A DNA stretch of 42,325 nucleotides, from positions 1 to 42,325 of the IMG/VR virus record IMGVR_UViG_3300046454_000747; one strand, written 5' to 3'. This document shows, piece by piece, positions 1-18,546 of this stretch. The stretch is from a virus. A program made the translations under genes and the position numbers. Below the pieces are notes generated by a model. That model made no database searches. It had not been told where the DNA came from and saw only the letters and a program-made list of their open reading frames with translations. Each line of letters opens with the position of its first letter. The stretch's first letter is position 1.

Positions 1-22
1 TGTTGATCCTCAGTCATTAAGC
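1..22 (+). promoter_or_regulatory. Early-region bipartite motif, copy 1
   Basis: TGTTGA, six bases, then GTCATTAAGC. Read on the minus strand it is GCTTAATGAC-N6-TCAACA, and its TAA overlaps the stop of the leftmost gene. If the molecule is circular this copy lies upstream of the small terminase gene at the other edge. It belongs to a family of seven good copies in the early region. The function is unknown; an operator is an inference. Confidence 0.5.
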
Positions 23-289
23 GTTTGTGACTTCCCCGCGGGTTATGTTCCCGTGCCAGCCGCACGATTTCTTGCGGCCGTGGGCCGCGAATCGAATGCT
101 CGGGAGCACAGTCAGAGAATCCCAGTTCATCCTCCTGCCGTCATAGTTCCAGTTCCAAATCGCTTTCTCCTGGTCGGGCGGCCCTGCCGAGCACTTAATG
201 GAAACCGTGTATGGTGCTCCGCATCGCGGACAGTCAAAGCGCAAACTGCCATCGCCCCAAAACTGCGGATTTAACGACGAAAGTTTCAT
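17..289 (-). CDS. Small Zn-binding phage protein (DUF6527-like)
   Basis: A 90-residue protein with a CPRC knuckle near residue 20 and a second Cys/His pair near the end (CGWHG) followed by ITRGEV. The pattern of a CxxC, an aromatic-rich middle, LTVLPSI and C-WHG-I--GEV resembles the small zinc-binding DUF6527 proteins common in phages; that assignment is from memory of the pattern. I start at the ATG at 289 because GAGGGG lies ten bases upstream. An ATG at 307 overlaps the previous stop as ATGA and would add six residues. It is the last gene before the left edge, and its function is unknown. Confidence 0.65.
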   Translation of the reverse strand: MKLSSLNPQFWGDGSLRFDCPRCGAPYTVSIKCSAGPPDQEKAIWNWNYDGRRMNWDSLTVLPSIRFAAHGRKKSCGWHGNITRGEVTNA

Positions 290-303
290 CGGTTGATTTC
301 CCC

Positions 304-543
304 TCATTTGCAGATTGTGGAATCCCAGCCATAGTAAACCGGGAAAGCGTCCTCATCCCGCGCGCGGTGCATCTCTTCACCGGTCAGGCAGCGCCGGCCC
401 TTTGAGTCGACGCACACCATGTCCCGGCCTCCAATTCTGCGCTGTGCAGCATTAACCCAATGCTGAAAGGTGTCGAATTGACCGTCCAGCAGAAGCTCAA
501 ATTTCGGCAGAGATTTCGGCATTGCGCGCTGACTCTTTCTCAT
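304..543 (-). CDS. Hypothetical phage protein, 79 aa
   Basis: A short soluble protein with a conserved-looking core (FQHWVNAAQRRIGG, then VCVDSKGRRC, then RARDEDAFPVYYGW). It has two cysteines and no membrane segment. It overlaps the following gene by ATGA, which supports translation. An alternative ATG at 522 has a weak AAAGAG ribosome site, whereas the ATG at 543 has none. I do not recognise the family. Its place among small early genes suggests an accessory early function, but nothing in the sequence specifies it. Confidence 0.6.
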   Translation of the reverse strand: MRKSQRAMPKSLPKFELLLDGQFDTFQHWVNAAQRRIGGRDMVCVDSKGRRCLTGEEMHRARDEDAFPVYYGWDSTICK

Positions 544-608
544 TCGCTGTTAAAAGATGGCACGGGCAGGATTCGACACCTGCTCCACGTCTGGTCACAA
601 GCCGGAAT

Positions 609-936
609 TCAGGAGCCGACCGCCCCTACCCTCAGCCGTCGCTGTAAGTTGTAATCTTCGGGCCTTTGCAGGTTGATCGTGCCAGCCTGAAGCTGAACAC
701 TGGGCCTGCTCTGCCGCCCTTGGGTCGTGTTTGTGTGATCGTGTCCTTCCACGATGCCGTGCCAAAATGTTAAAGGGACCGTCGAAACGACTTCGCCGCA
801 CTGCCCTCGGAGTGTGGCAATCAATTTTCAAGACGCACTCCGATTCGCTGGTCGGGGAGTGATCTGACTTGATCGCAGGCCAGCGATAGCCCGGATTGCT
901 TAGCGTGGTCAGCATCTCTTTTTGACGCCTCGGCAT
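609..936 (-). pseudogene. Possible small early gene with a frameshift
   Basis: The frame opening at ATG 936 looks coding for about 43 residues (MPRRQKEMLTTLSNPGYRW onward), then becomes Arg/His-rich and poor. From about 815 a second frame, shifted by +1, looks much more protein-like (LTFWHG, EGHDHTN, LQAGTINLQRPEDYN) and runs to a stop at 609. Motif copy 2 sits 22 bases upstream of 936, as it does upstream of other early genes, which supports a real start there. Either one extra base interrupts the gene (mutation or sequence error), or only one of the two frames is real. The uninterrupted first frame would end at 595. Confidence 0.35.
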
Positions 937-957
937 GTTAAGACGGTCCCGATTGCT

Positions 958-979
958 GGTTGACCAAAACTCATTCAGG
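958..979 (+). promoter_or_regulatory. Early-region bipartite motif, copy 2 (degenerate)
   Basis: GGTTGA, six bases, CTCATTCAGG. It keeps the six-base spacing but is weaker in the GTCATTAAGC half. It lies 22 bases upstream of the ATG at 936. Confidence 0.4.
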
Positions 980-1222
980 GTTAAAAAATTCGCGGGCTAA
1001 ATCATCCGGAATTCTCGCCCGCTCCTCGAGACACTTTAGGACGGCCCGGGCGATGAGCCCCTTAACGCGGAAGCCTTCGGGATCGATTGGTGGGCACTCC
1101 GTCCGATTGTTGTTCCACCAGGCAATGTCACGCAAACATTGATCGCACTCGGAAATGACGTTGTGGCATGTTCGCATGAGCCTTGTTCGGGCCGCTTCTG
1201 CTTCTTTTTGTCGGTTCGTCAT
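971..1222 (-). CDS. Hypothetical early protein, 83 aa
   Basis: A soluble, charged, mostly helical-looking protein with four cysteines (TCHN, ECDQC, ECPP, LKCLEE). It starts at ATG 1222 with AGGTG seven bases upstream, and motif copy 3 directly precedes that site. There are no recognisable domain motifs. The C-terminal part (RVKGLIARAVLKCLEERARIPDDLAREFF) looks like a helical pair. It lies immediately downstream of the XRE regulator gene and is probably co-transcribed with it. Confidence 0.65.
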   Translation of the reverse strand: MTNRQKEAEAARTRLMRTCHNVISECDQCLRDIAWWNNNRTECPPIDPEGFRVKGLIARAVLKCLEERARIPDDLAREFFNPE

Positions 1223-1231
1223 CGCTTCACC

Positions 1232-1253
1232 TGTTGACTAAACGTCATTAAGC
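1232..1253 (+). promoter_or_regulatory. Early-region bipartite motif, copy 3
   Basis: TGTTGA-N6-GTCATTAAGC, a full match. It overlaps the last codons of the XRE gene and ends ten bases before the start at 1222. Confidence 0.55.
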
Positions 1254-1504
1254 GGCTTCCAAATCTCATCAACAGTCTTTCCGAAAAACTTCGCGATCTT
1301 GCGTGCGCTCGTCAGCATCGGGTCTGTGCCGTGCTCGATGTTCCACAGCCCGGCTTGCGTCATCCCGATTTCTTCGCCGACTGCCTTAAGGCTCAGCCCG
1401 AGTTCCAATCGCATTTCAGCAAGGCGACAATCGTGAACCGGATGGCGGCCTTTCGGGAGGCGGCTTTTCCTTTTTTTGGCTGCAAGGCGTTCGGCTGGAG
1501 TCAT
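1238..1504 (-). CDS. XRE-family helix-turn-helix regulator
   Basis: An 88-residue DNA-binding protein. A basic N-terminus (AAKKRKSRLPKGRH) is followed by a Cro/C1-type HTH at about residues 25-75: LGLSLKAVGEEIGMTQAGLWNIEHG, then SARKIAKFFGKTVDEIW. This is the canonical XRE pattern with a recognition helix around TQAGLWNIE. The ATG at 1504 lies just after the previous stop; a TTG at 1510 is an alternative. It is the only obvious Cro/C1-like factor in the window, so it is the first candidate for lysis-lysogeny or early-gene control and for binding the nearby bipartite motif. It is transcribed with the early genes, not divergently as a lambda-type repressor would be. Confidence 0.85.
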   Translation of the reverse strand: MTPAERLAAKKRKSRLPKGRHPVHDCRLAEMRLELGLSLKAVGEEIGMTQAGLWNIEHGTDPMLTSARKIAKFFGKTVDEIWKPLNDV

Positions 1505-1506
1505 TG

Positions 1507-1692
1507 TCAATACTTCCCGTTTTCCGGGTCGAGTTCATCGGCCAGCGCACGCAGGTGAGCGAGCGGCCCAAATGGTGAATTGTCTTTAAGATCGACGACC
1601 AGCGGTTTTCCGTCCTTGCCGATAGTGTCCTGCACGGCTCTTACCAGTCCCCACAATTCATCAGTGTTTCGAGTTGTGTCGGCGTCGGTCAT
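1507..1692 (-). CDS. Hypothetical early protein, 61 aa
   Basis: A small acidic protein (MTDADTTRNTDELWGLVRAV onward, ending ADELDPENGKY). I chose the ATG at 1692 because AAAGGGG lies seven bases upstream; the longer reading from 1800 overlaps the neighbouring gene and looks like a shadow. Motif copy 4 lies 20 bases upstream. No domain is recognised and there is no membrane segment. It is probably translated with the XRE gene, whose ATG follows its TGA by two bases. Confidence 0.6.
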   Translation of the reverse strand: MTDADTTRNTDELWGLVRAVQDTIGKDGKPLVVDLKDNSPFGPLAHLRALADELDPENGKY

Positions 1693-1711
1693 GCGGGATC
1701 CCCTTTTCTCT

Positions 1712-1733
1712 GGTTGATAAACGGTCAGCGCGG
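1712..1733 (+). promoter_or_regulatory. Early-region bipartite motif, copy 4
   Basis: GGTTGA-N6-GTCAGCGCGG. The first half and the GTCA core are conserved; TTAAGC is replaced by a GC-rich variant shared with copy 5. It lies 20 bases upstream of the start at 1692. Confidence 0.45.
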
Positions 1734-2009
1734 CTAAGGGCGCGGGTCTTCGTTGTCGAAGTAGGCGAGCAGCTCCACGCAGAGCGTCGTCGCGCGGCAC
1801 AGTGTTTCCTCGATTTGCTCGCAGCGGCCGTTATTGATGTTGATCGCAATTCCAAGGTCGGTCAACAACTCTTTCACGTGCCTGGCCTCTAACATTGGGC
1901 TCGGCCGGAATCGAACCGGCTGTCGCAACTCTTGGGGGTCTTTAATGGGGCCTCGCTGGGAGTGCGTATCGTGCGCACCTGCCGTCGCTGGTGTTTCTTC
2001 ATTCTGCAT
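1734..2009 (-). CDS. Hypothetical early protein, 91 aa
   Basis: The N-terminal half is polar and probably disordered (Gln, Thr, His and Arg rich). The C-terminal half is helical with two cysteines (RHVKELLTDLGIAI, then EETLCRATTLCVELLAYFDNED). The ATG at 2009 has AAGGGG about nine bases upstream; a longer start at 2054 lacks a good site. No known family is recognised. It is one of a run of single-domain early genes, each following a bipartite motif. Confidence 0.55.
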   Translation of the reverse strand: MQNEETPATAGAHDTHSQRGPIKDPQELRQPVRFRPSPMLEARHVKELLTDLGIAININNGRCEQIEETLCRATTLCVELLAYFDNEDPRP

Positions 2010-2068
2010 TGTGAACGCCCCTTCCGAATGAACCGACCCGGTTGTCCGCACCACGCGGCCCGAACCCT

Positions 2069-2090
2069 TGTTGATTGATAGTCAGCGCCT
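2069..2090 (+). promoter_or_regulatory. Early-region bipartite motif, copy 5
   Basis: TGTTGA-N6-GTCAGCGCCT. It overlaps the 3' end of the gene that stops at 2082 and precedes the gene that starts at 2009 or 2054. Confidence 0.5.
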
Positions 2091-2303
2091 CGACGGGGCG
2101 GACAGGGCCAGGTCGAGACGCCTGATGAGTTGATTCGCGACCGTCTCTGCGACTTCCCCCGAAAAAGGGTATCTACGATGCGCCATGGCCGCGGTCACCA
2201 GGCATAGGGCCAGCGCTTGCTCGCTGGCGGTGAAATCCTCTGCTTTGCCCTCGGGCCTGCTCGCGGCCCCAATTCGTCGCATGTATTCGGCGAGTGTTGG
2301 CAT
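2082..2303 (-). CDS. Hypothetical early protein, 73 aa
   Basis: A small helical protein starting MPTLAEYMRRIGAASRP and carrying EQALALCLVTAAMAHRRYPF and VAETVANQLIRRLDLAL segments. The hydrophobic stretch near residues 30-42 is moderately apolar and may be a buried helix rather than a membrane span. An upstream start at 2324 adds seven residues and lacks a better ribosome site. No family is recognised. Confidence 0.55.
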   Translation of the reverse strand: MPTLAEYMRRIGAASRPEGKAEDFTASEQALALCLVTAAMAHRRYPFSGEVAETVANQLIRRLDLALSAPSRR

Positions 2304-2323
2304 TCTTACGCTCCAAAGCCACA

Positions 2324-2341
2324 AATGACTTGATGTTATCC
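2324..2341 (+). promoter_or_regulatory. Weak variant of the bipartite motif
   Basis: AATGAC-N6-TTATCC. It keeps TGAC and the six-base gap but replaces TCAACA with TTATCC. It lies 21 bases upstream of the start at 2303. A similar TTAT-type variant occurs at 7406-7427. Confidence 0.25.
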
Positions 2342-2536
2342 GACCGGATTGGCCACGACGTCGGCGAGTTCCGCGGCCCGGTCGTCATGCAGGATGATGA
2401 ATGTCAGTCCGGTATCATCGATGCGAATTGACATGCTTTTGACGACGCGTGTGCGGTTCGAATTGCTGTCCTTTATCAGCAGTCTCCCCTGTTTCTCGGC
2501 CCCGGACAGGAATTTGAGCATTTCTTCGACAGTCAT
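2336..2536 (-). CDS. Hypothetical early protein, 66 aa
   Basis: A small mixed alpha/beta protein: an N-terminal helix (TVEEMLKFLSGAEK), then a beta-rich section (RVVKSMSIRIDDTGLTFIIL). GGGGG lies about eight bases before the ATG. Motif copy 7 lies 13 bases upstream. There are no cysteines or membrane segment, and the family is not recognised. Confidence 0.6.
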   Translation of the reverse strand: MTVEEMLKFLSGAEKQGRLLIKDSNSNRTRVVKSMSIRIDDTGLTFIILHDDRAAELADVVANPVG

Positions 2537-2548
2537 CGATCCCCCAAT

Positions 2549-2570
2549 GCTTAATGAGTCCCGATCAACA
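2549..2570 (-). promoter_or_regulatory. Early-region bipartite motif, copy 7 (opposite orientation)
   Basis: On the plus strand it reads GCTTAATGAG-N6-TCAACA, so the motif is inverted relative to copies 1-5, with the same spacing. It lies in the gap between the ParB-like gene and the gene starting at 2536. Confidence 0.5.
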
Positions 2571-2575
2571 CGATT

Positions 2576-3580
2576 TCACTTCCTGGCCCGAACGAAGACG
2601 AGTAATTCCCGGACGGCGGCATCGACGCGTTTTCGATCCTTGATGTCGAGTAGCTCGACGAGACGGTTTTCGACGGTCGCCCAATCCTCGGCCTGGTCGG
2701 TGGGAGGCTTCATCTCCGGCTTCGCGGTCTCGGCCTTGCGGGCATCAATGCGACGCTGGACGGGCGTCGCTCGGGTTTTCACCAATCCCTGTTCGACGGT
2801 TTTGAATTTGCCTCCCCCGATTCCCGCGGCGAGCTCGACTACCTTGGCGGCCGGCAGGTCACGAACTAGCTTTGCGGCGGCATCCGACATTTTCACCTGG
2901 CCGTCCATCAGCTTTCGACCGACGATCGATCCGGGCCCCCCCAGGCGATCGACCGCTTTCGAGAAAACTCCATTTCGTTTGACGGTCGCGGGCGAGACGT
3001 TCGATTCTTTGGCGATCCGGACGGCCGTTTTTCCCTTCGGCTTATGGCCGTTTTTTAAGGGCTCAACTTGAGCCCTTAAATTCTTGGGGCGGCCGTGCGG
3101 CTGGCTCTCATTTTCCAGCCGTTTACCGATCAGATAGGCTCGCTGTTCATCGCTGACATTGCGACGGGCGAGCTGCAGTCCCAGCACAAAATCAATTGCC
3201 TCGGCCCTTCCGGAGAAAGTCATCCATTCGACGTCGTATTGGATTTCGAAGGCGTCGCAGATCTCTTTGCGATTGTGCCCATCGAGCAGAAATCCTGTTT
3301 CGGACCAGCCCTTGAGGCGATCGAGGCAGCCCTCGGCCCGCAGACTCTTCTCGAGGTCGGTCCGTTCCTGCTTCGACAGCGTGGGAATTAGATCCCGAAT
3401 CTCCGGGTCGATCGACAGCGGCGGTCTGACATCTGGATCATTGTGAGCAATGCCGGCCGGTACAGTCGTGCTGTTCAGGCCGGGGTGAGTCGGCGGCTTG
3501 ACCCGCAGATTAAAACCGATCCCATTTCCTTCAGGGGCGGCGACTTCCGCGGTCCCCTTTGCTTTCTTGCCAAGGCGCAT
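2576..3580 (-). CDS. ParB/RepB-like DNA-binding protein
   Basis: A 334-residue protein. The ParB-like sulfiredoxin-fold core lies near residues 70-125 (ERTDLEKSLRAEGC, then FLLDGHNRKEICDAF, a variant of the ParB box GxxRxxA region). Next is the DEQRAYLIGKRLENE helix typical of this group, then an HTH-like segment around residue 190 (KTAVRIAKESNVSPATVKRNGVFSKAV) and a charged C-terminus (VENRLVELLDIKDRKRVDAAV). ParB-like proteins bind specific DNA and some partition or regulate replicons. No ParA ATPase is present, so a regulatory or replication-accessory role is more likely than partition. It is followed by a motif copy and small genes. Confidence 0.75.
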   Translation of the reverse strand: MRLGKKAKGTAEVAAPEGNGIGFNLRVKPPTHPGLNSTTVPAGIAHNDPDVRPPLSIDPEIRDLIPTLSKQERTDLEKSLRAEGCLDRLKGWSETGFLLDGHNRKEICDAFEIQYDVEWMTFSGRAEAIDFVLGLQLARRNVSDEQRAYLIGKRLENESQPHGRPKNLRAQVEPLKNGHKPKGKTAVRIAKESNVSPATVKRNGVFSKAVDRLGGPGSIVGRKLMDGQVKMSDAAAKLVRDLPAAKVVELAAGIGGGKFKTVEQGLVKTRATPVQRRIDARKAETAKPEMKPPTDQAEDWATVENRLVELLDIKDRKRVDAAVRELLVFVRARK

Positions 3581-3591
3581 GGCGAATCCCT

Positions 3592-4386
3592 TCAGGCGTT
3601 AAGGAAACGTCCGCGGAAACAGGGCACGTCGCCGAGTTTTTCGCGCAGGCGTTCACCAATGAAAGTGACTTCCAGTTCGATCGCGTTGTGAACGGCCAGG
3701 GGAAACGGGATCAAGCGGAATTCTCTCTCCTGCGGAGAAAACTCGAACACGCATTTGATGCCCTGGCGTTCGACCAATGAGGGATCGTCGAACGTCCGAA
3801 CGTCGAGTATCAAATCGTCGGGGCATTCCCCGGCCCCGCTCACAGCCTGGGCCTCGATGTCGTTCCCCAGCGATTCCCGGGCATTGCTGAACTGGCCCAC
3901 GGCGCCCGACATATTGGCGAATTTCAGGTCGCTTACCCAGTTGAAGAGTCGCGGGTCGCGCTGGCATTCCCCCAGGTCGGTCCGCAATAGCTTGCGGAAT
4001 GCCTTCTGGTCGTAGCCCGGCCGATCCTTTTCCAGCCTGGCCAGCAGGACCATTGTCGGCGTTAATGTCAGCGACATGGTGGCGAAATCGCGGCGGGTAT
4101 CGTCGTCGATAACGACGGCGACCCCGGTCCGGTCATACCACACGACGGTATGTTCGGAGCCCTTCTCTTGAACGAATCGCTCAACCTCATCGAGTGTGAT
4201 CAGGCGATGATTGCGGCCAGCCGGCATGGCGATCTGCTTTTCGAATTTACCGTCGGCTCCGACGGTCAAATAGACGTGCGGCGGCTCGGCCTGCGGTTTT
4301 ACGATCGCAAGTTTTCCCTCGGCTCCCTTGGCGGCAACTGCTGTGTCCTGAATCAACTTAATTGCATCCGTCAAAATTCCTTCCAT
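3592..4386 (-). CDS. DUF2303-like (YfdQ-type) phage protein
   Basis: A 264-residue soluble protein. The order of segments matches the YfdQ/DUF2303 family as I remember it: an N-terminal beta section (PHVYLTVGADG), a 'w---f' centre with TPTMVLLARLEKD, a helical FRKLLRTDLGEC segment, and a beta-rich C-terminus (IKCVFEFSPQEREFRLIPFP, then IGERLREKLGDVPCFRGRF). Family members are early phage proteins of uncertain function, often near recombination or replication genes. AAAAGGATG precedes the ATG. The assignment is moderate because only the layout and the C-terminal pattern support it. Confidence 0.6.
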   Translation of the reverse strand: MEGILTDAIKLIQDTAVAAKGAEGKLAIVKPQAEPPHVYLTVGADGKFEKQIAMPAGRNHRLITLDEVERFVQEKGSEHTVVWYDRTGVAVVIDDDTRRDFATMSLTLTPTMVLLARLEKDRPGYDQKAFRKLLRTDLGECQRDPRLFNWVSDLKFANMSGAVGQFSNARESLGNDIEAQAVSGAGECPDDLILDVRTFDDPSLVERQGIKCVFEFSPQEREFRLIPFPLAVHNAIELEVTFIGERLREKLGDVPCFRGRFLNA

Positions 4387-4444
4387 GCTGCATCCTTTTC
4401 AAAATAAGTGGCGATTGAGAACGAAACGAACTGAATTGAATGGG

Positions 4445-4774
4445 TCAGGCCAGAGCAGGATCGTCCGCGACCTGAGCGTCGAACCGCAGACCGGCCTTCG
4501 AGGGGCGCATCTTGAAATCGCGAGTTCGGAATTTCGGCACGGCGGCGTTAGCGTCGATCGACACCTTAACCTCTTCGCACTGCCCCGTTTCGGGGTCGGC
4601 GACCGGCTCAAATTCGAGCTGAAACGTCAACTTACGTTTCTTCTTTTCGCCTGGGCGATTCATGCAGTCGTTCGTAATGAGCTGCAGGTGCTTTTGAAAC
4701 AGCAGCTCAATTTTGGGCTCAAGCACTTCCAACGTGGCGAGCGTCAATTGTTCAAGTTGAACAGCCATGTGCAT
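4445..4774 (-). CDS. Hypothetical early protein, 109 aa
   Basis: Mixed alpha/beta: a helical N-terminus (LEQLTLATLEVLEPKIELLFQKHLQL), a basic stretch (RPGEKKKRKLTF), then beta strands alternating acidic and apolar residues (FQLEFEPVADP, EEVKVSIDANAAV). GGAGG lies four bases before the ATG at 4774 and ten before a second ATG at 4768, so either start could be used. It sits between a Zn-finger gene and the DUF2303-like gene in a replication-associated cluster. No family is recognised; nucleic-acid binding is only a guess from the basic patch. Confidence 0.65.
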   Translation of the reverse strand: MHMAVQLEQLTLATLEVLEPKIELLFQKHLQLITNDCMNRPGEKKKRKLTFQLEFEPVADPETGQCEEVKVSIDANAAVPKFRTRDFKMRPSKAGLRFDAQVADDPALA

Positions 4775-4810
4775 GGTTCCTCCGTGGTTAGAACAACAGA
4801 TAAATGTGAG

Positions 4811-5281
4811 TCAGTATGTCGGAAATTCGGATTCAAGGTGCGCGCCCGGAGGTCGCAGGAATGCTTCGGCCTCGCTCACGGTGCGCTCGGCGCGCATAAT
4901 CGAATCCGGCAAATGGAAAGGCGGCCCCTGGATAACTGTGCATGATCCCGATGCGAAACTCTGGGCCAGAATGTTTGCTTGCAACTGGTCGGCAAGCTCG
5001 AGCGGGGCGGCAATCGGCGTCATCCAGAATACGGCGCCCCCATCTGGCGGCTGAACCGCAATTCTGAATTTTCTCGACGATCCAGGGGGCGGCGCCGGCC
5101 TCATTCGCTGGATTTCGGCCTCGTCCGGCCAACCAGGCGGCTTTGCCATGCCATCGCCGCCGCAACGAGGACACTGAACGCGTCGCCAGAATTTCCACGC
5201 TGGCGACGCGGGATCGTGAATCCAGCCGCATCCCGGGCCGGCCGGGCCGGTCCCGCAAGTCCTGCAATAGTTGAATCCCAT
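4811..5281 (-). CDS. Hypothetical protein with DnaJ-like CxxCxG zinc knuckles
   Basis: A 156-residue protein with two CxxCxG elements near the N-terminus, CRTCGTG (about residues 6-12) and CPRCGGDG (about 37-44). Together they could bind one zinc as in DnaJ cysteine-rich domains. The rest (RKFRIAVQPPDGGAVFWM, then LADQLQANILAQSF) looks like a compact alpha/beta domain. It starts at ATG 5281, 15 bases downstream of motif copy 8. It lies between PolX and a small gene. No function can be assigned. Confidence 0.6.
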   Translation of the reverse strand: MGFNYCRTCGTGPAGPGCGWIHDPASPAWKFWRRVQCPRCGGDGMAKPPGWPDEAEIQRMRPAPPPGSSRKFRIAVQPPDGGAVFWMTPIAAPLELADQLQANILAQSFASGSCTVIQGPPFHLPDSIMRAERTVSEAEAFLRPPGAHLESEFPTY

Positions 5282-5295
5282 TATTGCACCCGAAT

Positions 5296-5317
5296 GATTA
5301 ATGACCCGCCGTCAACA
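5296..5317 (-). promoter_or_regulatory. Early-region bipartite motif, copy 8 (opposite orientation)
   Basis: On the plus strand it is GATTAATGAC-N6-TCAACA. It lies within the 41-base gap between the PolX-like gene and the Zn-knuckle gene, 15 bases upstream of the latter. Confidence 0.5.
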
Positions 5318-5322
5318 AGGGT

Positions 5323-6021
5323 TTAACGATTGAAGGCCGGTTGCTGATGACGGCACTCGTCGACCTGGGCCTCGGCGGGAAGGCGCAGGAAATTCAACAG
5401 GCGGTCGGTTGTTCGCTCCCAGGCCAGCCATGTCGGCAGGCCCAGTGCGGCGAAAAAGTCCTCTTCCTCGGGCGTCTCAATGACCCCCGACGGTCCCCAG
5501 AGCGATCCGCGATGTTGATTGAGACCGTCGGGCATAGCGCCCCCGTTCGAGCGTTTGGTAACAACCAGATGGCCGAACTCGGCGGGACCAGTGCGGATAG
5601 CGAGCAATGCGCCCCAGCTCGCGGGGGGCGTCACAATGAACAAATCGACCTTTATGCCGTCCCAGTCGAGTCGCTTATAGCGTCGGCCGTTTCTCTTCAG
5701 GTCTTGATCGAACTGAAGCGGGCCTGGGCCGGAACAAACCCGATTGAGCAATCTGTCGATCACCGTCGGGATTTTCTCCGGATCGATCGCGTCGACCGGC
5801 TCGGCGAATAACGCCGCGGGGCGCTTCGATGGCAGCGGCTGACAAACGATTTCGATGTCCTTCACGAATGGCTTGCGGCGACGGATGCTCCCGGCGACAA
5901 CAGCCCGATCGCCTTCGCATACCGGCGCGATCAGATCAATAATTTTGTCCGCAATGTCCGCGGCGATCTTCCAGGAAACGCTATCCTTCGGCTCTATCAA
6001 GACGTTCGGTTCTTCGATCAT
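5323..6021 (-). CDS. DNA polymerase X-like nucleotidyltransferase
   Basis: A 232-residue cytoplasmic protein with the Pol-beta/PolX palm signature: AGSIRRRK (G44-S45 with R47-R48), KDIEIV (D55 and E57) and the third carboxylate in GIKVDLFIV (D126), followed by RTGPAEFGH, the counterpart of the nucleotide-binding segment. Such enzymes add nucleotides in gap repair or template-limited synthesis. It has the palm and thumb only, without the N-terminal 8-kDa lyase domain or a C-terminal PHP nuclease. The D-x-E in place of D-x-D also occurs in this superfamily. It overlaps the initiator gene by ATGA, placing it in the replication operon. Confidence 0.85.
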   Translation of the reverse strand: MIEEPNVLIEPKDSVSWKIAADIADKIIDLIAPVCEGDRAVVAGSIRRRKPFVKDIEIVCQPLPSKRPAALFAEPVDAIDPEKIPTVIDRLLNRVCSGPGPLQFDQDLKRNGRRYKRLDWDGIKVDLFIVTPPASWGALLAIRTGPAEFGHLVVTKRSNGGAMPDGLNQHRGSLWGPSGVIETPEEEDFFAALGLPTWLAWERTTDRLLNFLRLPAEAQVDECRHQQPAFNR

Positions 6022-6920
6022 AATTCGGACTCCTGACGGTCTAGGTAACGCAACGCCTGGGACGCCCAGTCGTCGTCAATCAACCCGGCAAACCAGCGGC
6101 GATCGCGAACATTAACGGCAAAGGCGGCCGGCCCGGGCGCTTCCCGATTCGATCGTTTCGCTTCGTTGTGACGGCGAAATACTGAATGGGCCGCGGCGAA
6201 AATTCTGTGTTTGTCCTCGGTGAAAGCCCGCCCCGTGGCGACGGCCCATTGAAACCACTCGTCAATCCTGTCGGGGTTCGAGAGATCATCAATCGACAGC
6301 ATAAAAAAAAGTGCCGGTCTGCCCGGCAAATTTGCCGGTCTCTGAGCAACCAGTGTTCTTTGACCATCAATGGTTTTGGTAATGGTTAATGTGGTGTTTT
6401 CATTCGAAAACAATGGTAATGGTAAAGACCGGCAAATTTGCCGGTCAGACCGGCAATTCTGCCGGTCTTCCCCGTTTAACAAATTGTTGGCGACATCCCT
6501 CCCCAAATTACCGGCGTCCGCGGCTCCCGCGTGTTCCACGCCGGCGGGTGACAATTCACCCCCAACCCTCCTGGTCAATCGTTCGACGGCAAACCAGTCG
6601 ACTCGATCAACCCCATTTTCGCCTGGCCCGCTCGGATCCTCGGAAAACAAAATCTGCAGGTCCGAGAAGTCCTGTCGCCAGTTCCGCAGGCAGCGCTGGC
6701 TAATGTCCAGCTTCGCTGCCATCACTTCCTGCCCGCGGCGATAGCAGCCATCGCCGTCTGAGTTTTTTGCCATCGCGACTAGCCAGGCGACGAGTCCTTT
6801 TTGTCGCTTGGCCGAGATTACCGGCGGGTCCCTGATCTTCAACAGCGCCGCGATCTCAAGTTTTCTGTCTTGCGAAAGCGGTAATTCGAGTTGCCCCTCC
6901 GCAGCCTCCTGCTGGCGCAT
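6018..6920 (-). CDS. Replication initiator-like protein with internal origin
   Basis: A 300-residue protein. The N-terminal winged-helix/HTH region (about residues 20-95: KLEIAALLKI, KRQKGLVAWLVAMAKN, GQEVMAAKLDISQRCLRNW, FSDLQILF) resembles phage O-type initiators. A polar linker (about 145-205) is encoded by palindromic iterons and reads as repetitive DRQ-CRS units. The C-terminal domain contains IDEWFQWAVATGRAFTEDKHRIFAAAHSV. The presence of binding-site-like repeats inside the gene, as in lambda O, is what makes initiator likely; no catalytic helicase or primase motif is visible. It starts the replication operon just after csrA and overlaps PolX by ATGA. Confidence 0.7.
   Translation of the reverse strand: MRQQEAAEGQLELPLSQDRKLEIAALLKIRDPPVISAKRQKGLVAWLVAMAKNSDGDGCYRRGQEVMAAKLDISQRCLRNWRQDFSDLQILFSEDPSGPGENGVDRVDWFAVERLTRRVGGELSPAGVEHAGAADAGNLGRDVANNLLNGEDRQNCRSDRQICRSLPLPLFSNENTTLTITKTIDGQRTLVAQRPANLPGRPALFFMLSIDDLSNPDRIDEWFQWAVATGRAFTEDKHRIFAAAHSVFRRHNEAKRSNREAPGPAAFAVNVRDRRWFAGLIDDDWASQALRYLDRQESEL
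6312..6467. repeat. Candidate replication origin: palindromic iterons flanking an AT-rich stretch
   Basis: Two 20-bp palindromes, GACCGGCAAATTTGCCGGTC at 6427-6446 and a near-copy with AATTCT centre at 6448-6467, are spaced 21 bases apart. A third copy is at 6321-6340 (one mismatch), preceded by a half site TGCCGGTC at 6312-6319. The roughly 80 bases between the two clusters (6345-6425) are markedly AT-rich (TGGTTTTGGTAATGG, GTGTTTTCATTCGAAAAC), unlike the surroundings. Iterons plus an AT-rich unwinding element inside an initiator gene is the lambda origin design. Confidence 0.7.
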
Positions 6921-6936
6921 CGTGAGTCCTTTCCAT

Positions 6937-7134
6937 TCATGCGTTGACCGATTCCCGGGCGACCGAACTGGCTATTGATCTGCATGGTTGAATCAATTCC
7001 CTTCTTTCAATTCTGACGTCCTTGGGCGCTCGGAATCCGAGTCGGGCCTTTCCCGATGCTGTTGAACAAACGAAGACCTCGATATTTCCGTCGATGACTA
7101 CTGAACGGCCCTGGCGGATCGACAAAACAAGCAT
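6937..7134 (-). CDS. csrA: CsrA-family RNA-binding translational regulator
   Basis: A 65-residue protein that starts MLVLSIRQGRSVVIDGNIEV and continues with ARLGFRAPKDVRIERREL, the full CsrA/RsmA beta-strand order. R6 of the first strand and a VxIxR-type segment near residues 42-47 correspond to the conserved RNA-binding surface. CsrA dimers bind GGA-containing hairpins near ribosome sites and block or alter translation. AAGGGAG lies four bases before this ATG; the longer reading from 7227 has no such site. It is the first gene after the integrase and heads the early operon, so the phage may regulate its own or host mRNAs. A 16-base gap leads to the initiator gene. Confidence 0.92.
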   Translation of the reverse strand: MLVLSIRQGRSVVIDGNIEVFVCSTASGKARLGFRAPKDVRIERRELIQPCRSIASSVARESVNA

Positions 7135-7347
7135 GATCTCCCTTAAAAAGTGGAATAGAAAACGGCTACTGCCGTGCCTGTGGACGCAGGGCGGATCGAG
7201 TGCTAGGCGGCAATGACTTGGGACCATAGTTCGACCGGCTTGCTACGAACTGGGAAAGTCCGTCACGGCAGAGCCACACGAAGACCGCGGCGACATCATG
7301 GCGCCGCGGGTAACGGACGGGACCGCCCCGCCCCGAAAACGGTAGGG

Positions 7348-7384
7348 CCCCGCGGGAGGATGCGTCCATCGACTCCCGGCGGGG
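7348..7384 (-). other. Stable hairpin upstream of csrA
   Basis: CCCCGC-GGGAG-GATG pairs with CATC-CTCCC-GCGGGG around a four-base loop, with a small bulge. On the minus strand the apex reads GATGGACGCATC, placing GGA at the loop edge. TTTT follows about eight bases later, so it might also act as a weak terminator for the integrase transcript. Confidence 0.45.
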
Positions 7385-7433
7385 GCAGGCAGCAGCGCCT
7401 GGAATGCTTAATGACTCGCGGTTATTTGCAAAA

Positions 7434-7529
7434 GACGGGACCGGATTTGCGACGACGAGTCGCGGGAACTTTTCAGCGGTTCCGATAACGGGCCCGGTCC
7501 CGTCGACGCCTCGAATAAAATCGGAACCG
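7434..7529 (-). ncRNA. Candidate pseudoknot-forming RNA element
   Basis: Stem A is GACGGGACCGG at 7434-7444 paired with CCGGTCCCGTC at 7494-7504 (11 bp, perfect). Stem B is CGGTTCCGAT at 7477-7486 paired with ATCGGAACCG at 7520-7529 (10 bp, perfect). The order A-B-A'-B' is that of an H-type pseudoknot, or of two mutually exclusive folds. A third short pair (GACTCG 7413-7418 with CGAGTC 7456-7461) and GGAAC/GTTCC at 7465-7483 add further alternatives. The class is unknown. The pairing is directly visible; a functional RNA is inferred. Confidence 0.4.
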
Positions 7530-7605
7530 AGGCTGCCGCGACAAGCGGCTATCGAACCTTGCGACGGGCATCGATACGTCTTATGGGCCCCGGTTCCGTG
7601 TGCGG

Positions 7606-8592
7606 TTATTCGAATAGGCAAAGCTGGTCCTCCTGACTCTTTCCCGATGCCATCCGTCGCATCGTTTCCGGTAAGGGCAGCGCGGCGACCGCTGTTCGCT
7701 GCTGCTCGCTGATCTCGCCGATATAGTACCTGGCGGTCACTTGGGGCGAAGAATGCCCCAGTTCGCGTTGCACAAGCGGCAAAGGGCATCCGAGCTTTAC
7801 CAGCTCAGTCCCCTTCGTGCGTCGCAGTGCGTGAGGGAGCGCGTGATCGTTCGGCGGAATTCCAGCCCGCGATTGGAAGCGATGCAGGATCGTGTAAAAG
7901 TACCGGCGGCACTTCGTCCACGAAAACAGCTTCCCATCGCGCGAGATTGGGAGGCGTCGGATCGCCCAGATCGCTTCATCCGTCAGGAAGAACGCGCGTT
8001 CCCCGTCCGATTTGTCGTCTTCGGCGGGGACTCGCAAAATGCGGAGTGCGAGATCCTCTTCCGAAGGTCGGGGAATTTCGAGCATGGCGCCCGAGCGAAT
8101 CCCGGTAATATATGACAGCAGGAAAAACGTCTGCCACCAATGCGACGCTGGGCAATCGGGATGAGCCGGGATCGTCGCGAACTTGCAGGCATCGAGCGCT
8201 CGTCCGAACGCATCCTGCGTGACGCATGTCGGACGGCGACGCATTTCACGCTGCAATCGCATCCGGGGCGGCTGCCACGTCGGATCTTCGACCAGGCCGA
8301 GCCGATCGCGATGATAAGCGTCGGGGGCCAGGGCCGCTGCAAATGCCGCATTGAGATAGCGGATGTCGCCATTCAGAGTTGCTGGCGAAAGCGGCGCGCC
8401 CGCGCGGCCATTCTCCGCCTTGCGGCGCGTGAGATACGCGATGTAATTCCGATTCGTGATCCCTTCCAGAGTCGACGGATCCACATATCGGGTGAATCTT
8501 CCCAGGATTTCCCGCGCTTTATCCGCATTGCGAACCCCTCCATGGAGACCGAGCCATCCTAGGTACGCGTCTTTGTACGCGATCCAAAGCAT
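7606..8592 (-). CDS. int: Tyrosine recombinase (phage integrase)
   Basis: A 328-residue protein with an N-terminal SAM-like core-binding domain (about 1-110) and a catalytic domain carrying the tyrosine-recombinase set: R166 in YITGIRSG, K194 region, H254-x-x-R257 in PHALRR, H280 in ELGHS and nucleophile Y289 nine residues later in TARYY. It would catalyse attP x attB recombination. It lies about 725 bp from a 3' tRNA-Lys fragment that is the likely attP core and is read away from it, the usual integrase-att arrangement. A minus-strand terminator (8927-8955) shields it from late transcription, so its promoter should lie between 8593 and 8926. Confidence 0.93.
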   Translation of the reverse strand: MLWIAYKDAYLGWLGLHGGVRNADKAREILGRFTRYVDPSTLEGITNRNYIAYLTRRKAENGRAGAPLSPATLNGDIRYLNAAFAAALAPDAYHRDRLGLVEDPTWQPPRMRLQREMRRRPTCVTQDAFGRALDACKFATIPAHPDCPASHWWQTFFLLSYITGIRSGAMLEIPRPSEEDLALRILRVPAEDDKSDGERAFFLTDEAIWAIRRLPISRDGKLFSWTKCRRYFYTILHRFQSRAGIPPNDHALPHALRRTKGTELVKLGCPLPLVQRELGHSSPQVTARYYIGEISEQQRTAVAALPLPETMRRMASGKSQEDQLCLFE

Positions 8593-8955: not shown

Positions 8956-9064
8956 AGGACGGAAGTCAAAACACGGTTTGACGATCCGGCTTTTAATAAC
9001 TTTTCAGAAAGGCGGGTGAATGCCTCTGTTCGGCATATTACGGCGGGGACGATTCTTCAAATAA

Positions 9065-9174
9065 CTGATTGGCCGGCGAGAGTGCAGTGGGGTTGGCCTT
9101 AGTTCGATTGTCGTCGACATAACGGGGGCCTTACGGACACCCACACAACCCTTGCACTCTCGCCGGCAAATCAG
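9065..9174. repeat. Large imperfect inverted repeat near attP
   Basis: Arms at 9065-9095 and 9146-9174 pair over about 29 bases, with a perfect 14-bp core (CCGGCGAGAGTGCA at 9073-9086 with TGCACTCTCGCCGG at 9153-9166) and outer CTGATT/AATCAG pairs. The 50-base loop contains a further GTCGTCGAC palindrome. It could be integrase arm sites, a cruciform or a short transcript. No coding frame through it is convincing. Confidence 0.6.
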
Positions 9175-9177
9175 TTC

Positions 9178-9196
9178 AACGGACATTCTGTCCGTT
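9178..9196. repeat. Perfect 8-bp palindrome
   Basis: AACGGACA-TTC-TGTCCGTT, immediately adjacent to the large inverted repeat. It looks like an operator or a recombinase half-site pair. Confidence 0.5.
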
Positions 9197-9316
9197 GCAC
9201 ACATCGGCCTCGGTGTTATCGCAAATCGAGACGCTTTATCCGATGGCATTTCGACTTACGTCAAGTCTCGCGGCGCGTCCGAACAATTCAACGGACTGGC
9301 CGTGATAGACTTCAAG

Positions 9317-9363
9317 TGAGGGCGTTGGGATTCGAACCCAAGACCTACGGATTAAAAGTCCGG
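9317..9363 (-). other. 3' half of tRNA-Lys(TTT): probable attP core
   Basis: On the minus strand this reads, in order: an anticodon arm with loop CTTTTAA (anticodon TTT), a five-base variable loop AGGTC, a T-arm with stem TTGGG/CCCAA and loop TTCGAAT, the acceptor 3' strand CGCCCTC and discriminator A. There is no D-arm and no matching 5' acceptor (GAGGGCG) upstream, so this is a 3' fragment and not a working gene. Phages that integrate into tRNA genes carry exactly such a 3' copy to restore the host gene. It lies between the late terminator and the integrase. Confidence 0.75.
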
Positions 9364-16787: not shown

Positions 16788-16830
16788 CTCACTTCCTTAT
16801 TCAAGCTGGCCAATGCGTAATGACGGCCAT

Positions 16831-18546
16831 TTATTTGGCGACTTCGAAGACGCTGGATGAATTGACCTGGATCGAGACGCCGCCGGCATCCAGCGATGGG
16901 ACCTGCAGGGGCGCCGTCCAATTATTCCAAGCCGGATTGGCGACCAGGAACCATTTGCCGGGCGATGACGTGGTATAGATGCGGGTTTTGTAGCCTACCG
17001 GGTAGAACTGCATCAGCGTCGGATTGATGTCGGCGAACTGCGGTGAGGTCCCGGCCGCGTTTAGTTGCACACGATCCGAACGGAATTGCAGATAGAGGAT
17101 GCCGGTGTTAGGTGCGGTCTGCGTGTAATGACCTGGAAAGAAATCAATTTTGCAGCCGGCATATTGCATCTTCTCATAGGTGTTGCCGGCCCAGATTCCG
17201 ACGTGGCCGTTATAGTTGTATCCGGTGTCGACCGCGTCGCCGCGGAAAACATTGGAGTCCACGACAAAGCCGGAATAGTCTCCGCCGTAGAATCCGCCTT
17301 CGAGTAGCCAGCCCCGGTTGACGATATTTTTTGTGAGGCTGAGATTGGGGAAATCCTCACCTCCGTGCGCGGCCGTCACGTCGTAATTCTGATTACATAG
17401 CAAACAGCCCCAATCAATTTCGTTCTGGGTAACGTTCCAATTTCCAAAGCCGCGTTGTTCAATTGCTCCGAGTCCTAAGATCGATGTGATCATGGCTTGG
17501 TACGCGGTCATGCGCGTAAATTTGTTGTTCTGCACCTCGACGTTGTAGGCGCTCTCCGAGAAGAGAATGCCCCGATAACACAAATCAAATTTCGAATTGA
17601 CCGCTTTGTAAAAACTGCCGCGGTATCCGATATGCACATTGCCGTTTCCGCAGCCCTGCACAATCGAATTGGAAAATGTCTGACCAAGGCCCGGGGACAT
17701 ACACATACACTCTGTCCCGTTGTAGGCGCTATGTGCGAAGTCCGTCCCGCCCAATGCTGACGATTCAATCGTAATGGCGGGCACGCTGATCATGCTCGCG
17801 TTACTGCCCCAGGCGGTCGAATTGACGAAGTAAAAACTAGGCGACGCCGATTCTCCCGAATAGACATTCTCACCGGCCCAATTGCACGTATTGAAATTGA
17901 AAAACAGGATCCTCGTCGAGGCGACAGAGTTTGCGAACGCGACAGCTTTATGCGTAACGTCCCAACCGTTGCCCGTCGCTCGATCTGCGCCGACGAGCGA
18001 ATAGCCGGTGTATGGGAAGTTCCCATTGAGCGAGAGACCGCGAAACTGGATCGTGTCGATCGGCCCGGCGGCCTGGCCGTCATATCCGAAGCCGAACATT
18101 TTGAAGCGTGAAATTTTCGCATAGGAATCGGTCGTCTTAACCCAGGTCGTTTTCGGGTCTTTCAATCCGGGCATGAGCCCGGACAGAATCGATTTCGTCG
18201 GACCATCGCCGGAAAAGACGAGATTCCCCATATTGATTCGGAAGATGATCGGCCAGCCCGGGTTGACGTCAGTCGGTTGGCCGCAGACGAGGTAAACGCC
18301 GGCCGGGAAATAGACATTCCCCGAGCCGTTCGAAACCGCCGCGGCGATCGCCGCCCTGATGGCAACCGTATCATCGCTGAGACCGTCCCCCTTGGCCCCG
18401 AAATCCTTCACATTGAAAACCCGAAAGCCGGGGTCGGCGCAGATCTGCTCGAAGCCTGTCGGCGGCACCGAGGGATCGGCGCCGGGCTGGGCGAATGCGA
18501 CCGCGGACGAAAACAAAATCAGGAAACAGGCGAGAAGGTGACGCAT
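16831..18546 (-). CDS. Pectate-lyase-like tailspike with signal peptide
   Basis: 571 residues. A textbook Sec signal (MRHLLACFLILFSSAVAFA) is followed by the Pectate_lyase_3/GH28-like start motif VFNVKDFGAKGDGLSDDTVAIRAAI (about residues 43-68) and NVYFPAGVYLVCG, then beta-helix turns (ILFSESAYNVEVQNNKFTRMTAY, LTKNIVNRGWLLEGGFYGGDYSGFVVDSNVF). Such domains in phages form depolymerase tailspikes that bind or cleave surface polysaccharide. The ATG at 18546 has GGAG six bases upstream; the TTG at 18558 is less likely. A cleavable signal peptide is odd for a virion protein and suggests export from the infected cell. Confidence 0.8.
   Translation of the reverse strand: MRHLLACFLILFSSAVAFAQPGADPSVPPTGFEQICADPGFRVFNVKDFGAKGDGLSDDTVAIRAAIAAAVSNGSGNVYFPAGVYLVCGQPTDVNPGWPIIFRINMGNLVFSGDGPTKSILSGLMPGLKDPKTTWVKTTDSYAKISRFKMFGFGYDGQAAGPIDTIQFRGLSLNGNFPYTGYSLVGADRATGNGWDVTHKAVAFANSVASTRILFFNFNTCNWAGENVYSGESASPSFYFVNSTAWGSNASMISVPAITIESSALGGTDFAHSAYNGTECMCMSPGLGQTFSNSIVQGCGNGNVHIGYRGSFYKAVNSKFDLCYRGILFSESAYNVEVQNNKFTRMTAYQAMITSILGLGAIEQRGFGNWNVTQNEIDWGCLLCNQNYDVTAAHGGEDFPNLSLTKNIVNRGWLLEGGFYGGDYSGFVVDSNVFRGDAVDTGYNYNGHVGIWAGNTYEKMQYAGCKIDFFPGHYTQTAPNTGILYLQFRSDRVQLNAAGTSPQFADINPTLMQFYPVGYKTRIYTTSSPGKWFLVANPAWNNWTAPLQVPSLDAGGVSIQVNSSSVFEVAK

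Follow-up and report, generated by a model that had tools for sequence, protein, structure and literature searches.

A repeated TGA-N7-TCA dyad at early-gene junctions of an integrase-bearing phage: shared linkers, cassette edges and a putative operator role

Early region and junction copies

The stretch of DNA analyzed here (the window) is a viral record of 42,325 bases in which nearly all likely genes lie on the minus strand. Terminase and structural genes are found on the right, followed by an integrase (7606-8592), a CsrA-like gene, replication-type genes and small genes that continue down to base 1. A 15.2-kb contig (L009/L148), 99.8% identical over the first 6 kb, runs past the left edge of the window to terminase genes, and therefore about 4 kb of a genome of roughly 46 kb are missing from the window. 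Base 1 is also the divergence point of this contig and that of a second phage (L131), TCAACA being followed by CGCC in the former and by AGCG in the latter; the assembler probably stopped at this branch, which would explain why a copy of the repeat described below lies at the window edge. At 9313-9356 on the minus strand, the integrase gene is preceded by the 3' part of a tRNA-Lys-like gene (anticodon loop CTTTTAA), likely the attP core; ARAGORN called no whole tRNA there. A long inverted repeat (ACTGATTTGCCGGCGAGAGTGCA ... TGCACTCTCGCCGGCCAATCAGT; 9060-9185, minus strand) lies near this putative attachment site.

An earlier note on this DNA had listed seven copies of a 22-bp bipartite motif with constant spacing, all but one of them just before early gene starts. 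The seven copies and their spacing are all present in the window, and two further copies had been overlooked (291-312 and a weaker one at 524-545). The full 22-bp string is matched perfectly by only two copies, 1-22 and 1232-1253, and with a single mismatch by another two, 2549 and 5296 (4 hits at up to three mismatches versus 0.17 expected, a number reached in 0 of 100 shuffles), while the copies at 958, 1712 and 2069 have only the core and the TCAAC half in common with it. The invariant bases form a self-complementary dyad, TGA-N7-TCA, usually extended to (A/C)TGA-N7-TCA(A/G)C, with half-sites 11 bp apart from centre to centre, i.e., about one helical turn.

Seven copies follow the gene direction, on the minus strand. 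The first, at 1-22 (linker D, GCTTAATGACTGAGGATCAACA), has the TAA of the upstream gene inside it; the earlier note had set this edge copy apart from gene starts, which is contradicted by the overlapping contig, where the ATG of the next gene stands about 7 bp past the core. The copy at 291-312 (linker C, TGCAAATGAGGGGAAATCAACC) precedes the ATG of gene 17-289 by 4 bp and its TGA is the upstream stop; the weaker copy at 524-545 (linker H, GAATGAGAAAGAGTCAGCGCGC) precedes the ATG at 522. Further along are 958-979 (linker A, CCTGAATGAGTTTTGGTCAACC, then AGCAATCGGGA), 24 bp before the ATG at 936; 1232-1253 (linker F), the exact consensus, 12 bp before the ATG at 1222; 1712-1733 (CCGCGCTGACCGTTTATCAACC), 22 bp before the ATG at 1692; and 2069-2090 (AGGCGCTGACTATCAATCAACA), about 60 bp before a probable ATG near 2008, again with the upstream stop as its TGA. 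In these seven, it is the TCAAC/TCAGC half that points towards the downstream start, at a distance of 4-60 bp. The other two copies are inverted (plus strand): 2549-2570 (linker G), between a ParB-like gene (2576-3580, minus strand) and gene 2336-2536, with its core 18 bp before the ATG at 2536, and 5296-5317 (GATTAATGACCCGCCGTCAACA), with its core 20 bp before the ATG at 5281. The occurrence of both orientations, already noted before, is what would be expected of a DNA site.

Nine TGA-N7-TCA cores lie in the first 5.4 kb, all of them gene-junction copies, versus six in the remaining 36.9 kb. In a scan of the window for triplet dyads, this one ranks first of 1088 (9 observed versus ~1.0 expected; P=1.4e-6, or about 0.0015 after Bonferroni correction). 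With the spacing left variable, TTGA-Nk-TCA peaks at k=7 in 1-5400 (8 hits), compared with 0.73 per 5.4 kb elsewhere in the window and 0.79 in simulated sequence. A core is present within 70 bp upstream of the start in 7 of 13 early genes versus 0 of 39 other genes, a count in which a few of the listed late starts are approximate. The claim that late genes carry no comparable copies thus holds, the motif frequency there being that of background, and this extends to the weak variant at 16815-16836 that had been named as an exception: deviating at 3 of the 13 fixed bases, it cannot be told apart from background. A scan that includes it gave 7 forward and 8 reverse hits at three mismatches or fewer, versus 3 and 3 for a control pattern, and this variant and the other weak three-mismatch hits were dropped as background.

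A translation element similar to the start-associated sequences (SAS) of cluster K mycobacteriophages, in which a linker of stop, Shine-Dalgarno and start would adjust translation or coupling, the palindrome having no role of its own, is a possible but doubtful reading of this placement. In several copies the TGA doubles as the stop codon of the upstream gene, most copies are followed by a start codon within 4-24 bp, and GAGG or GGGG occurs within the N7 of copies 1 and 291 and of linkers in a distant relative (L010, see below). However, Shine-Dalgarno-like bases fall within the N7 of some copies only and are outside it or absent in others, with none in the N7 of 958, 1232, 1712 and 2069; any ribosome-binding stretch of the inverted copies (2549 and 5296) lies outside the motif; and the fixed TGA/TCA(A/G)C bases are not Shine-Dalgarno bases. 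By inspection, no RNA hairpin is conserved at the copies, as the bases flanking the core are unpaired (A opposite A or C). Part of the linker conservation may still be translational, since several linkers (1, 291 and several of L010) hold a Shine-Dalgarno-like stretch inside N7.

Linkers shared with other phages and exchange of a single gene

Absence from related phages had been put forward as an observation that would speak against the motif; this check was run, and the motif is present in relatives. The comparison comprises three phage lineages only, all of them metagenomic contigs. Within genome_contigs, no relative was confirmed by two scans (ParB-like and TerL alignments), and in the GenBank phage collection all protein relatives were distant and nothing matched 1-5400 at the DNA level.

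The closest view of an exchange comes from L131 and L138, two contigs that are 100% identical over 10.3 kb. The sole gene that both share with the window is the single-gene cassette 17-289 (minus strand, a DUF6527 protein), which together with its flanks makes up 308 bp at 100% identity; this block begins in the 291-312 copy and ends in the 1-22 copy, right after which the homology stops, and the L131 genes up- and downstream of the cassette differ from those of the window. A second block of 54 bp ends in the 524-545 copy, and a third, of 20 bp at the end of the array (AGCGCGCTGACAGGGAATCA), represents one more core copy. The sequences directly show the repeat and where it lies, that it is conserved in relatives and that the partner identity blocks begin or end at copies; these facts support the view that the junction element marks cassette edges. 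The earlier note missed this aspect, namely that the copies are, as judged from these alignments, seams where whole genes were exchanged.

A one-gene cassette swapped with its edges at the dyad might also suggest an integron-like, site-specific exchange, with a phage or host recombinase recognizing the dyad and moving single genes. We consider this extremely improbable, as no attC-type structure is present, each junction has its own N7 that is kept between phages, as homology would give, and the sole integrase found adjoins the tRNA-Lys-like 3' end, the kind of site at which prophages typically attach. The integron pattern (GTTRRRY / RYYYAAC with a foldable attC between) is also different in sequence, given that the half-site here, GTTGAY, departs from it and only 7 bp lie between the half-sites.

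The distant relative L010 (a 40.8-kb contig) encodes a ParB-like protein 60% identical to that of window 2576-3580. When the arrays that follow this gene in the two phages were compared, the five best exact matches (26, 15, 13, 12 and 11 bp) were all located in junction copies. The longest, of 26 bp, is in the copy at 2549-2570 and occupies the same place in L010; 15 bp of the copy at 291-312 are identical in both L010 and L131, and the copies at 958-979 and 1232-1253 share TCAACCAGCAATYGGGA and CGTTTAGTCAAC, respectively, with L010. Three exact matches of at least 13 bp were observed versus 0.045 in simulations and 0 on the reverse-strand control. The order of the matches is the same in both phages, except for two that overlap in one L010 junction, and no convincing protein similarity was found between the array genes of the window and of L010. 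Hence, the junctions keep their identity, most with the N7 as well, while the genes between them were replaced or diverged beyond recognition. In two of the L010 linkers shared with the window phage, one core base is changed (TGG-N7-TCA near 2095, TGA-N7-TTA near 2946). A linker common to L010 and L131 (ATGAGGTTCAGCGCGCC) is a shared junction that departs from the N7 spacing and was not counted as a core copy.

These observations could be taken as mere mosaic boundaries, with the linkers being relics of common descent and the breakpoints set by selection for intact genes, a reading that we regard as unlikely. The common junction order of the window phage and L010 is what descent would give, and the genes between junctions could be old and fast-evolving; however, different junctions of one genome have the core in common despite their unrelated genes, and two of the copies have the opposite orientation, so it is a repeated core and not just an inherited one. 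Moreover, the ParB coding DNA is 77% identical between the window and L010, whereas the linkers are identical over 11-26 bp. Random recombinants filtered for intact genes could account for part of the boundary pattern.

With array limits that were set after the data were seen, cores are enriched in the arrays of both relatives (L010: 3 in the array and 3 outside, P=0.002; L131: 4 and 3, P=0.0003). L148 contains 7 occurrences of the start-linked form and L131 contains 3, compared with no more than two in any of 151 unrelated loci, which had mainly been fetched for holding a motif-like string. Most of the loci obtained with the motif pattern scan (110) and with a AATGAGGGGAAATCA scan (26) gave no sign of further junction copies, and these served as negative controls.

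A putative operator and its candidate binders

Whether the motif is an operator array or a promoter element had been left as two alternatives, and the former is the one that fits. A promoter element before many early genes, read by a phage-specific or alternative sigma factor, is decidedly unlikely: the copies stand upstream of starts and at 960 one of them overlaps a sigma-70-like match that reads against the gene direction, but the core is self-complementary and its orientation two-way, several copies are so close to the start codon (4 to 24 bp) that a transcript could hardly begin in between, sigma-70-like sites are at chance level (3 in 1-7600 versus 2.3 expected), and no sigma factor was identified among the proteins scanned. 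The putative operator role, in turn, is suggested by the dyad symmetry, the half-sites about one turn apart, the two-way orientation, the restriction to early junctions and the conservation in relatives. Half-sites at such a distance are usual for many helix-turn-helix dimers.

Taken together, we hold with slightly better than even confidence that the repeat is a junction element of the early operon, combining a regulator's operator with a homology seam for the swapping of single-gene cassettes. Each copy would be a short palindrome packed between the stop of one small gene and the start of the next, at which a dimer of a phage regulator could read half-sites about 11 bp apart; occupying many sites along the operon, it would keep the early operon silent or tuned. 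The linkers would in turn offer short homology at which recombination swaps single-gene cassettes, since they are nearly the sole sequence common to otherwise unrelated early genes, and a swap at a linker would leave a gene's stop, operator and ribosome-binding context whole. Protein binding, repression and homologous recombination as the route of exchange are what we infer from this arrangement, and ordinary or annealing recombination over linkers of 11-26 bp is the simplest route. Very little probability is assigned to a combined scheme in which one phage protein recognizing the dyad both silences the early operon and directs cassette exchange between related phages, with N7 acting as the address that keeps the order.

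As binder, the earlier note had proposed the small XRE/HTH_3 protein encoded at 1238-1504 (minus strand). This proposal is weakened, and the candidate is a weak one: among viral contigs, only the window phage was found to encode this protein, and no HTH_3 domain was found in the 40.8-kb L010 contig that carries the same sites; thus, the XRE protein is not the general binder, unless the L010 contig, which may be incomplete, lacks the corresponding gene. The ParB-like protein (2576-3580) is an alternative candidate, being present in both the window phage and L010 and adjoining the best conserved copy. One of its hits is annotated as "pNOB8 ParB N-like protein", and a HMMER search of the PDB with it returned no relative.

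In three phages, the array is closed by a small opposite-strand gene (L148:6504-6716, L131:1032-1307 and L010:3298-3486, all on the minus strand). The L010 product is a ribbon-helix-helix protein, and the other two are similar to it by eye only. Such a protein was also considered as binder and set aside, as Pfam RHH_1 was matched by the one of L010 alone.

Comparison with known junction repeats

Several systems show a similar behavior. The promoter early stem-loop (PeSL) mobile regulatory cassettes of T4-type phages, reportedly described by Arbiol et al. in 2010, are said to be short conserved intergenic regulatory sequences, holding an early promoter and a stem-loop, where small early-gene modules shuffle. 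As in PeSLs, the junction copies mark the edges of exchanged modules, so that by seam function these cassettes may be the closest analogue; yet sigma-70-like sites are at chance here, no hairpin was seen at the copies by inspection, and the window phage, which bears an integrase, is of another kind than the T4-type.

In cluster K mycobacteriophages, SAS and extended SAS (ESAS) are short repeats that precede the starts of many non-structural genes by a few bp, mostly in one orientation with rare inverted copies, sometimes with the upstream stop inside and in half of the cases with imperfect inverted repeats; they are kept while the downstream gene families differ, and a function as homologous-recombination target was suggested by the authors (PMC3203893). 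SAS is an asymmetric 13-mer with a Shine-Dalgarno core in long intergenic gaps, and ESAS consists of 17-bp arms separated by a spacer of 4-13 bp (PMC3203893). The junction element works like SAS/ESAS, being likewise placed few bp before the starts of non-structural genes only and kept with changing downstream genes, but is not a member: the 13-bp SAS sequence GGGATAGGAGCCC is absent from the copies, which share TGA-N7-TCA instead, in a compact dyad of fixed spacing within tight gaps. In addition, single-gene exchange at the copies is seen directly here.

The stoperators of cluster A phages (e.g., L5) are many operator-like copies across the genome, largely in one orientation relative to transcription, and consist of asymmetric 13-bp sites bound by a monomeric repressor (PMC6550527, PMC9283540). 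Binding of this immunity repressor to stoperators blocks elongation. Many operator-like copies, largely in one orientation, are found in the window phage too, and by inferred role stoperators would be the closest analogue (PMC6550527). However, a near-palindrome confined to early junctions is found here, with a self-complementary TGA-N7-TCA core and asymmetric flanks in place of the asymmetric 13-bp site. Sharing, by analogy, the behavior of all three systems and failing the defining sequence feature of each, the element was filed under the broad kind of phage gene-junction repeats and under none of SAS/ESAS, stoperators or PeSL.

It has long been asked how phages can trade single early genes while their operons stay intact. 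In this group, the seams can be read directly, as the same short junction sequences recur in unchanged order in distant relatives, around genes that are unrelated, and the exact swap of one gene is seen between two of them. Should the dyad be an operator as well, a gene arriving through a seam would at once fall under the same regulator. For uncultured phages of this group, the motif also provides a means of finding the early-gene cassettes.

Some further features were observed. The L010 contig starts with a long tandem repeat of GGAGAC/GGATAC-type hexamers (1-300), just before the homolog of window gene 4445-4774. The CsrA-like protein of the window (6937-7227; Pfam CsrA, E=1.8e-14) has a weak match in the L010 contig as well. 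The protein at 5323-6021 shows weak similarity to nucleotidyltransferase domains (L544_NTransf, PolX) and is possibly a small DNA polymerase X-like protein. Finally, several near-identical palindromes of the GACCGGCAAATTTGCCGG type lie at 6300-6480, within gene 6018-6920.
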